Assembly (NCBI GenBank): GCA_013373205.1
Contig: JABXIG010000004.1
Location: 124,001-188,000, forward strand
Source of the DNA: Methylocystaceae bacterium
GTDB lineage: Bacteria > Pseudomonadota > Alphaproteobacteria > Rhodospirillales > Terasakiellaceae
DNA: 64,000 nt
Direction of reading: 5' to 3'
Of the stretch, positions 19,649 through 21,422 are shown piece by piece. Every line of letters begins with the position of its first letter. Positions within the stretch are counted from its first letter, which is position 1. The position numbers and the translations under genes are program-made. The notes under the pieces were generated by a model, which saw only the letters and a list, made by a program, of their open reading frames with translations, had not been told where the DNA came from and searched no databases.

Positions 19649-20461
19649 CTACGCCTTACGCATAAAACGCATCTGATCGATGATATATGATCCGATTTTT
19701 TTGCGCAGGCTCTGAACTTCCTCGCGCAAAATCAACAACGCACTAGCAACCCCGGCCGTCTCATTCATGTTGGATTCAACAAGGGCACGCAGGCTTACCA
19801 TATCCTGTTCCAGCTTCAAAGTACGTGCGGATTGTTCCGCGGCGCCATTTTCCAGATTGCTGGTGCGATCTTGTGTTTCTGCAAGGTCCGTGCGCACTTC
19901 TTCAACTTGGCCCGCCAGATCTTTCAGACCACCGTCGCCTTCGACCAAATCCATTAATTCAGCCATATCCTTGCGTGCGCCATGCAGGGACTTTTGATAG
20001 CCCAGAATTTCTGTGCGCATCTCGGCAAATTCCTGATGAACAGCGTCGGCTTTCATGGCTGCACGTTCCATACGCTGAGTCCGTGCGCGAATACCTTTCA
20101 GTTCGACCTGCTGACGTTCCATCGCGGTTAAAGCCTGTTTCAACAAGATGCGGATATTCTGAATATCGCCAGCCTGCGCCTGACTTGGGGCTTGGGCCAC
20201 ATCCTGAATGCGTTCCACCAGTTGATCCACAGTCCCGCGTAGCGCATCATATTTGGCTTTAGACTGATCGCGTTGAACGCGCAAGCGATGAAGCTCAGCC
20301 TGACGTTCCTTGACAAATTCTTCATGGCGTTTCACCGCATCCGGTCGCACCCCTAGCTTTTTGGCCGCTGATGCCAGACCCGGTGTCAAAACGGTACGTT
20401 TCAACGCGCCTGCCGGGGGAGCCTTCGGGGTAATCTTTAAAACCTGCTGTGCCTGTGCCAT
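19649..20461 (-). CDS. coiled-coil protein, 270 aa
   Basis: Not assigned to a family. After a proline-rich start (KITPKAPPAGALKRTVLTPG) residues ~40-265 are almost entirely charged helix with heptad patterning, typical of long coiled coils (RHEEFVKERQAELHRLRVQR; later TRTQRMERAAMK and ALLILREEVQSLRKK). No signal peptide or membrane segment. Likely a cytoplasmic structural or scaffolding protein. It is convergent with asnB and downstream, in the same direction, of the ncRNA candidate. Codon use matches the surrounding genome. Confidence 0.8.
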   Translation of the reverse strand: MAQAQQVLKITPKAPPAGALKRTVLTPGLASAAKKLGVRPDAVKRHEEFVKERQAELHRLRVQRDQSKAKYDALRGTVDQLVERIQDVAQAPSQAQAGDIQNIRILLKQALTAMERQQVELKGIRARTQRMERAAMKADAVHQEFAEMRTEILGYQKSLHGARKDMAELMDLVEGDGGLKDLAGQVEEVRTDLAETQDRTSNLENGAAEQSARTLKLEQDMVSLRALVESNMNETAGVASALLILREEVQSLRKKIGSYIIDQMRFMRKA

Positions 20462-20575
20462 GTGTCTTTTCTCTTTGTTTCAAACACACACCGAATAGAT
20501 GCGCCGAAATTAATCCAGTACAGCCATCATGACCGATAAAAGTGATCAGATGGTTAACGCCGATTAATTTTTGAG

Positions 20576-20757
20576 AAAAAAACCCCTTTGAAAAAAGCGA
20601 AAACGATTTGGAGAGGTAAGAAGGTCATGTCGTTTAGATAAATCTGAAAAGGATGCCAAACCCCCACTTGGCGGGATACTTGGGTGAATAAAAGCCGAGG
20701 CTTAACCATCCTTTTACAGATACCTTAACACGTATCGTTTTCGCTTCCTCAAAGGGG
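20576..20757 (-). ncRNA. structured ~180-nt RNA, 6S-like architecture
   Basis: On the minus strand an outer stem of 9 bp (20757-20749 with 20583-20591) continues after a small internal loop into a perfect 12-bp stem (20745-20734 with 20596-20607). A large asymmetric bubble follows, then a 14-bp stem with one bulge (20721-20707 with 20642-20655), and apical hairpins including GCCAA...TTGGC. The transcript would end in seven Us (20582-20576). A promoter-like pair places the start at about 20757. Long closing stem, central bubble, terminal stem and ~180-nt length match 6S RNA, which sequesters RNA polymerase, but no conserved 6S primary motif was confirmed and the neighbour is not zapA or ygfA. 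No ORF fits the segment. Confidence 0.62.
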
Positions 20758-20761
20758 AAAC

Positions 20762-20789
20762 TTTATGGTGATTACATCCTACGTGACAA
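20762..20789 (-). promoter_or_regulatory. promoter of the ncRNA candidate
   Basis: Minus-strand -35 TTGTCA (20789-20784, one mismatch to TTGACA) and -10 CATAAA (20767-20762, four of six matches) with a 16-bp spacer, placing transcription start within a base or two of the 5' end of the outer stem. Confidence 0.45.
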
Positions 20790-20839
20790 AACCGTGGCTG
20801 TATATCCGCATGAATACTTCAGGAAAAATCCTTATATAT

Positions 20840-21271
20840 TCATTCAACCACTTGCCGCCATGACCCTTTACTAAACCCTTTCAATACCTGACGGGCGCGG
20901 GTTTCATCTAGGGTTAATGCCTGAAATTCTGTCGCATAATCCAAAAACCCATCCAAATGCCGGGCCTGTTTGTGGGTATCCACAAACCCCATGGACCACT
21001 CTTCAAAATCTTTCTCTACAATCTCGCCCTGAAATAAAAGGCGGATATTGGTATGACGTGGATCCTTTTTGATTTTAACAAACAAAGGATCGACAAATTC
21101 TTGCGGTCCTTCAAGAACCTGTAAAAAGGAGCCTTTACGATAAACAAGAATACCGCTAATTCCTTTTTCCGAATTACATTTTCGTGCTGTTTCAAGAATA
21201 TTTGTCAATTCTACATCTGAAAAAGCCTTTAAGGCCGCACTTACATAGATTAATTGCATCATATTTGACAT
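20840..21271 (-). CDS. BLUF-domain blue-light photoreceptor
   Basis: About 143 residues, a stand-alone BLUF protein. Flavin-site residues are present: Tyr in LIYVSAA, Asn in ARKCNSEKGISGILVY, Gln in FLQVLEG, and WSMGF near the C-terminal end of the domain. BLUF proteins bind FAD and switch hydrogen bonding under blue light, then act on a separate partner since there is no output domain here. The ATG at 21271 is preferred over 21283 because GGAG lies six bases before it. It is followed by the ncRNA candidate in the same direction; no partner gene is evident beside it. Confidence 0.9.
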   Translation of the reverse strand: MSNMMQLIYVSAALKAFSDVELTNILETARKCNSEKGISGILVYRKGSFLQVLEGPQEFVDPLFVKIKKDPRHTNIRLLFQGEIVEKDFEEWSMGFVDTHKQARHLDGFLDYATEFQALTLDETRARQVLKGFSKGSWRQVVE

Positions 21272-21422
21272 AATTATCTCCATACCTACATATTTTCACT
21301 TCCTTTTTTCCGTTATTATTAAATATGACTGTTAAAATATTGAAAAACAATTCGGATGATTACTTCAGGACATTTACCTGATCCTTATGAATCCCCTATT
21401 TTTTTATGGATTATCCAAAAGA

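Follow-up and report, generated by a model that had tools for sequence, protein, structure and literature searches.

A predicted rod-shaped RNA with an invariant apical loop in the marine genus Terasakiella

Does the gap between a blue-light photoreceptor gene and the gene for a coiled-coil-like protein in a Terasakiella genome hold an RNA gene and, if so, what kind of RNA would it encode? The gap lies within a window of 64 kb (the whole stretch of DNA that was analysed). An initial annotation, made from the sequence of the window, had placed a structured RNA there and had offered two readings of it, a diverged 6S RNA or a new sRNA family. The genome containing the window (G000; 4.09 Mb) belongs to the genus Terasakiella, and six genomes of the genus (G000 to G005) were compared. 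We consider it very likely that the RNA gene, here called the rod RNA, is real.

Location and fold of the rod RNA

The rod RNA gene is intergenic and on the minus strand, between the BLUF photoreceptor gene and the gene for a 270-aa coiled-coil-like protein (Table 1). Cytochrome bc1 genes lie farther upstream: those for the Rieske protein and cytochrome c1, and a cytochrome b frame that was recognized by eye. The BLUF gene adjoins the rod RNA in G000, G002, and G004, and is absent from that place in G001, G003, and G005; a search of the whole G005 genome gave no BLUF match. Since G003 retains the rod RNA without BLUF alongside, BLUF is ruled out as a fixed partner. Among 150 genomes sampled from the order, six contain the 270-aa gene (E <= 1e-8), all of them in the same genus. 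Upstream of this gene, at 20530-20562, is a stretch beginning GTTAACCATCTGATCA. By eye, it is diverged in G004 and clearly similar in the other five genomes, carriers and non-carriers of the RNA alike. It resembles what we take to be CtrA half-sites (TTAACCAT), and the stretch suggests that the 270-aa gene may have a promoter of its own.

Table 1. Features of the rod RNA locus and the separate 6S RNA gene of the same genome. Positions are those of the window unless a contig is given.
Feature	Position	Strand	Remarks
BLUF blue-light photoreceptor gene	20840-21283	-	Pfam BLUF, 108 bits
Conserved upstream block	20800-20822	-	Aligns across all four carrier loci; candidate promoter element or regulator site
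Rod RNA gene, 182 nt	20757-20576	-	Bounded by the first closing-stem base and the end of the T run; transcript ends predicted
Closing stem P1, 5' arm	20734-20757	-	24 bp with 20583-20607, one bulged base; motif-open fold
Upper stem P2, 5' arm	20692-20732	-	37 pairs with 20626-20669, small interruptions
Apical loop, 22 nt	20670-20691	-	Motif-open fold
Invariant loop motif CCCAAGUAUCCCGCC, 15 nt	20670-20684	-	Identical in G000, G002, G003, and G004; proposed primary seed
Upper stem P2, 3' arm	20626-20669	-	Motif-open fold
One-sided 3' bulge ACCUUCUUACCUCUCCAA, 18 nt, no G	20608-20625	-	Proposed second seed
Closing stem P1, 3' arm	20583-20607	-	With the T run, has the form of a terminator
T7 run	20582-20576	-	Predicted terminator tail; from sequence
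270-aa coiled-coil-like protein gene	19649-20461	-	No Pfam family; weak SMC-like matches (NCBIfam)
G000 6S RNA	G000:C27:37262-37422 (L001:1501-1661)		55.5 bits

There is strong computational evidence for a fold. The minimum free energy of 20570-20765 (196 nt) is -68.3 kcal/mol, against -42.9 +/- 4.1 kcal/mol in shuffles (z -6.2; 0 of 200 as good), and this RNAfold-type check bears out the earlier proposal of a structured minus-strand RNA of about 180 nt. The shuffle tests used dinucleotide shuffles, 200 per RNA, with free folding. The three relatives that carry the RNA fold at least as well. Free energies and z-scores are -68.0 kcal/mol and -6.2 for G000, -73.3 and -6.25 for G003, -74.9 and -7.1 for G002, and -87.8 and -9.7 for G004, with 0 of 200 shuffles as good in each case; the z-score of G000 is the one for the 196-nt interval.

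What shape does the RNA take? For a comparison of architecture, each RNA was folded individually with the loop motif constrained to be unpaired (the motif-open folds), and the stems were summed by hand. All four carriers give one rod each, with 58-64 spanning pairs: a closing stem of 19-24 pairs, an upper stem of 37-40 pairs, and an apical loop of 19-25 nt. The internal loop is one-sided in all four, with 0-4 nt on the 5' side against 18-29 nt on the 3' side. The resulting 3' bulge is 18 nt long, pyrimidine-rich, and free of G in G000, G002, and G004; in G003 it is 29 nt long and contains G and a small hairpin. The terminal T run is T7 in G003, T6 in G004, and a weaker TTTTATATT in G002. Several features of the initial annotation change in proportion with these folds. 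The seven-U end stands, as the T7 run. So does the closing stem, at 24 bp with one bulged base instead of 21 bp; its inverted-repeat arms (20584-20607 and 20734-20757, 24 nt each) are 79% complementary. The large bubble is present as an unpaired region and is not two-sided, having 18 nt on the 3' strand opposite 1 nt. The 14-bp upper stem gives way to one of 37 bp with small interruptions.

In the free ensembles CCCAAGUAUCCCGCC is mostly unpaired, with a mean unpaired probability of 0.89 in G000, 0.86 in G004, 0.70 in G003, and 0.68 in G002; in the last two, some of its bases are paired in an appreciable fraction of structures. The free minimum-energy folds of G002, G003, and G004 pair some motif bases locally.

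Conservation and divergence among the carriers

The rod RNA is at the same site in four of the six genus genomes (G000, G002, G003, and G004). A DNA search finds it in two of the six, G000 itself included, and as a single copy in G000. The loop core CAAGTATCCCGCC occurs without mismatch in four of the six, in every case immediately upstream of the ortholog of the 270-aa gene. In G001 and G005, the end of petC and its terminator run directly into the 270-aa gene, with no RNA between. In a tree of the 270-aa protein, the carriers form two pairs (G000 with G003, G002 with G004), each with a non-carrier neighbor, such that two changes are needed. The simplest history would be ancient presence followed by two losses. 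Because the motif is missing from two of the six genomes, the rod RNA is dispensable.

The carriers have diverged considerably, with pairwise identity of 62%-75% over aligned bases, and the 15-mer CCCAAGUAUCCCGCC is identical in all four. Simulated drift at 20%-50% of the sites outside the motif gave mean energies of -40 to -48 kcal/mol, compared with -68 to -88 kcal/mol for the real RNAs; with 100 copies simulated for each RNA at each level, not one was as stable as its parent. This simulation and the z-scores are the main evidence that the structure has probably been under selection.

Column-by-column covariation is modest and comes from the two alignable sequences, G000 and G003. RNAalifold on this pair gives 35 pairs, of which 10 are changed on both sides and none is broken, a result seen in 0 of 500 shuffles; 13 of the 35 form local hairpins that are not part of the rod. 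Among the 22 pairs spanning the loop, 6 are changed on both sides and none is broken, with 6 of 500 shuffles as high and slid versions giving 0-4. When the rods of G000 (61 pairs) and G003 (58 pairs) are folded individually, 15 column pairs are held in common in the sequence alignment, and 4 of these are changed on both sides, a count equalled or exceeded in 30 of 500 shuffles; slid versions give 0-3. Projected on the other sequence, the G000 rod pairs at 41 of 60 positions and the G003 rod at 38 of 55, compared with 23-36 when slid. The projection and the small number of common column pairs imply that the two rods differ in register, or that the alignment is wrong there. Neither a MAFFT alignment of the four carriers nor RNAalifold on G002 and G004 recovers the rod. 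The four-way comparison uses the individual motif-open folds and a rung-by-rung alignment that assumes pairing; on that assumption, 12-22 of 52-57 aligned pairs differ on both sides. Covariation in relatives had been named beforehand as a check on the RNA gene, and its outcome in the two alignable sequences is modest support.

Could the locus be something other than an RNA gene, such as a DNA inverted repeat, a remnant of a mobile element, or simply a strong transcription terminator? Long inverted repeats can be DNA elements, the locus is missing from two of the six genomes, and the covariation is modest, as described above; moreover, the rod is self-complementary, so folding alone cannot fix the strand. 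Against this are the single copy in G000, the one site shared by four genomes from two branches of the genus, and the invariant loop. The T run follows the rod on the minus strand, and a simple terminator needs no invariant 15-nt loop. We regard this alternative as quite unlikely and favor an RNA gene. An RNA gene might also be the mRNA of a small protein, that is, a dual-function RNA. In G000 there is an ATG 25 nt before the motif with a frame that is open past the RNA end, and G003 has a GTG at the same place in a frame of 39 codons from stop to stop. In G002 and G004, however, no start codon precedes the motif in that frame, and in G002 the frame closes 19 nt ahead of the motif; in addition, the 15 nt are identical at all three codon positions in the four carriers. 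The four share no reading frame through the motif. Thus, the small protein was rejected as a very improbable reading, leaving a non-coding RNA as the one we favor.

How far does the rod RNA extend beyond the genus? When 317 genomes of the order were searched with a 14-mer core, 15 had a match, including 4 from the genus, compared with 8 of 317 for a reversed-pattern control. In the other 11 (of 311 genomes outside the genus), the 14-mer overlaps open frames of 109-584 codons and is enclosed by 0-33 pairs; these matches look fortuitous. A longer motif pattern matched one stretch, in T. pusilla, in a collection of 84,980 species; this pattern does not fit the G004 copy, meaning that such forms are missed, and the collection may omit records near the genome of the window. 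Viral contigs hold at least 120 stretches with the 14-mer, and phage and plasmid records gave no match. In a fold check of the 14-mer loci (149 rows, with repeat entries for the four Terasakiella copies), the rods of the genus come out on top, with 42-65 enclosing pairs. A viral locus (L024) reaches 42 as well, but it overlaps a 208-codon open frame. With a covariance model built from two of the sequences (R1), the remaining two copies ranked third and fourth among 86 matches, at 17.3 and 16.8 bits; these scores are near the background, the next match having 16.3. The wider searches were made by motif, so they would miss remote relatives that lack the exact motif. A search of the open-access literature found no report of the rod RNA. 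The 12-mer AAGTATCCCGCC does occur there, in one paper on 16S primers and one on microalgae that, by their titles, are not about RNA genes. It fits what is presumably a cyanobacterial or plastid 16S segment, and the likeness is taken as coincidence.

Relation to 6S RNA and the upstream region

Is the rod RNA a 6S RNA? With a length of about 180 nt and a rod shape with an internal unpaired region, it could be a 6S RNA, either diverged or a second one, which would bind RNA polymerase as a mimic of an open promoter. The covariance-model check recommended in the initial annotation (6S and all Rfam families) argues against this: with Rfam 15, the whole 64-kb window has no match at the gathering score, and neither the interval 20200-21200 (at E <= 10) nor any of the four carrier loci (at E <= 1) has a match to 6S RNA (RF00013, cut-off 46.4 bits). 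The sole Rfam match on the rod strand of 20200-21200 at E <= 10 is MIR6024, with 15.2 bits against a cut-off of 72 (E 8.2), and no Rfam match at the rod RNA site is credible. All six genus genomes also have a separate 6S RNA above the cut-off, one each, at 55.5-69.7 bits. The one in G000 is flanked by frames that we take to be zapA-like and 5-formyltetrahydrofolate (5-FTHF) cyclo-ligase-like, so the usual place of 6S RNA is already filled. The internal loop of the rod RNA is one-sided, and its conserved block is apical, whereas a 6S RNA would call for an invariant segment in a central, two-sided bubble, where RNA polymerase binds. Size and outline like those of 6S RNA are not sufficient to call an RNA 6S, and the chance that the rod RNA is one is very slight. 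Of the two readings first offered, the diverged 6S RNA thus falls away. The new sRNA family gains from the retention of the fold in four of six genomes with no credible Rfam match. In a separate observation, G004 has a sub-threshold match to the alphaproteobacterial sRNA ar35 outside the rod RNA (L176:2245-2359, minus strand; 25.5 bits against a cut-off of 45, E 0.18).

The initial annotation also proposed a promoter for the RNA, the pair TTGTCA-18-TAAAGT at 20789-20760. This pair scores 9 of 12, and one such site was found compared with 1.0 in shuffles, which is what chance would give; inspection by eye shows no conservation of the pair in the three relatives. The putative -10 box ends at 20760, three positions ahead of the closing stem, and the spacing from a -10 box to its start would put initiation from TAAAGT inside that stem. 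The conserved upstream block is a better candidate control element, perhaps as a promoter element of the rod RNA or as the site of a regulator. It contains an imperfect inverted repeat, TATTC-ATGC-GGATA (20803-20816), and TATTC-N4-GGATA aligns across the four carriers. In G000 its end is 45 nt upstream of the closing stem and, by eye, the block is absent from the shorter gaps between petC and the ORF in G001 and G005. If the block is a promoter or regulator site, the transcript may start farther upstream than assumed here. The exact sequence TATTCRTGCGGATA occurs twice across the six genomes, both times at the rod RNA. Allowing one mismatch raises the count to 32, with sites in non-carriers as well, compared with 8 for the reversed control, indicating that the sequence is not confined to the rod RNA. 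The excess may reflect a recurrent regulatory site or a bias of coding sequence.

Proposed function and comparison with known sRNAs

What might the rod RNA do? We infer that it is transcribed and that it has targets on which it acts as an antisense RNA. A single transcript would fold into one rod of about 60 bp, with a closing stem that would also serve as a Rho-independent terminator. The rod would present two single-stranded, C-rich segments, namely the apical loop with CCCAAGUAUCCCGCC and the pyrimidine-rich 3' bulge. The loop, as primary seed, and the bulge, as a second site, could pair with G-rich or Shine-Dalgarno-like stretches of target mRNAs, and this pairing would alter the translation or stability of those mRNAs. 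The long helices would be a scaffold that retains its rod shape as its sequence, and even its pairing register, drifts. We favor antisense action through the loop because C-rich unpaired segments on variable stems mark antisense sRNAs, both in Alphaproteobacteria (alpha-r14/NfeR1, GsrN) and outside them (LhrC). If the RNA is real, such action is moderately likely. A trans-encoded, non-coding regulatory RNA of Terasakiella, with proposed antisense pairing, is favored by a narrow balance as the overall description.

Searches for targets were made in the six genomes. The pattern GCGGGATAC-N(0-14)-ATG gave 19 sites, compared with 7 for the reversed control; by eye none recurs, and one of the 19 is the antisense strand of the rod RNA itself. 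No recurrent start-codon site was found among 16 of the 17 one-mismatch motif sites. The sole recurrent one-mismatch place (L137/L150) lies within a 236-codon frame, on the motif-carrying strand and not its complement.

An invariant loop need not be a seed. The rod RNA could instead bind or titrate a protein, with the loop, the bulge, or both as the site at which a cold-shock protein, ribosomal protein S1, Hfq, or another regulator is sequestered. A 15-nt block that is unchanged in four of four carriers while the helices drift suits a protein site as well as a seed, and the length of CCCAAGUAUCCCGCC, which exceeds that of most seeds, leaves room for a protein ligand. The bulge is pyrimidine-rich in all four, and Hfq is present in all six genus genomes. 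ProQ, a well-known partner of terminator-closed hairpins, is a poorer candidate: no gene with a ProQ/FinO domain was found in any of the six. Titrating RNAs such as CsrB carry more than one copy of their motif, whereas each rod RNA has a single copy. We consider protein binding unlikely as the main function, and antisense pairing remains the preferred reading. The two could also be combined in a two-site platform, with a protein at one display, an RNA at the other, and a dedicated upstream regulator. The rod RNA would then represent a class of bacterial regulatory RNA with a new architecture: a rod of about 60 bp, closed by a terminator, whose helices drift freely in sequence and in register and whose two single-stranded displays are fixed, the apical loop by its invariant 15 nt and the one-sided pyrimidine bulge by a length that hardly varies. 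This we regard as a speculative and rather improbable extension.

The combination of drifting helices and a frozen loop points to the nucleotides that are functional, and the loop could be tested by compensatory mutation once a target is found.

How does the rod RNA compare with RNAs that are already known? It is like 6S RNA (RF00013) in length and gross rod shape, and unlike it in failing the covariance-model test. The likenesses to other sRNAs are ones of working, and do not imply relatedness. The alpha-r14 sRNAs, according to the relevant part of PMC10746234, have ultraconserved CCUCCUCCC motifs in unpaired regions and stems that are highly different in sequence; NfeR1 of Sinorhizobium has three hairpins, each with CCUCCUCCC. 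Like these alphaproteobacterial RNAs, the rod RNA has a C-rich unpaired motif on sequence-variable stems. Unlike NfeR1, it is a single rod in four of four carriers, with one bulge and one invariant loop that has a different motif; the CCUCCUCCC 9-mer occurs in none of the four rod RNAs. GsrN of Caulobacter is similar in that its C-rich loop, which pairs with a G-tract in katG mRNA, is its most conserved part, and in that it is found in a narrow clade, with BLASTn matches confined to Caulobacteraceae (PMC5869019, in the sections that describe the RNA). It differs in belonging to the EcfG general stress network, in having its C-rich loop toward the 5' end, and in having a proven target (PMC5869019, same sections); the loop of the rod RNA is at the tip of a 60-bp rod. 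In LhrC of Listeria, redundant CU-rich or UCCC segments in loops and in a single-stranded stretch are the target sites, as far as described in the part of PMC4132741 that concerns them. LhrC differs in phylum, fold, and sequence, and has five homologues in its Listeria species, compared with the one copy of the rod RNA. ChvR of Caulobacter pairs with chvT through its second and third stem-loops, independently of Hfq, in a species said to lack ProQ (PMC6237742, in the part on this pairing). It is likened to the rod RNA by description alone, as an alphaproteobacterial sRNA with two separate pairing sites, which for the rod RNA are proposed. Set beside these systems, the rod RNA is very probably an undescribed, genus-level RNA family of an already known kind, and as such it would add a new family to a little-studied marine genus.
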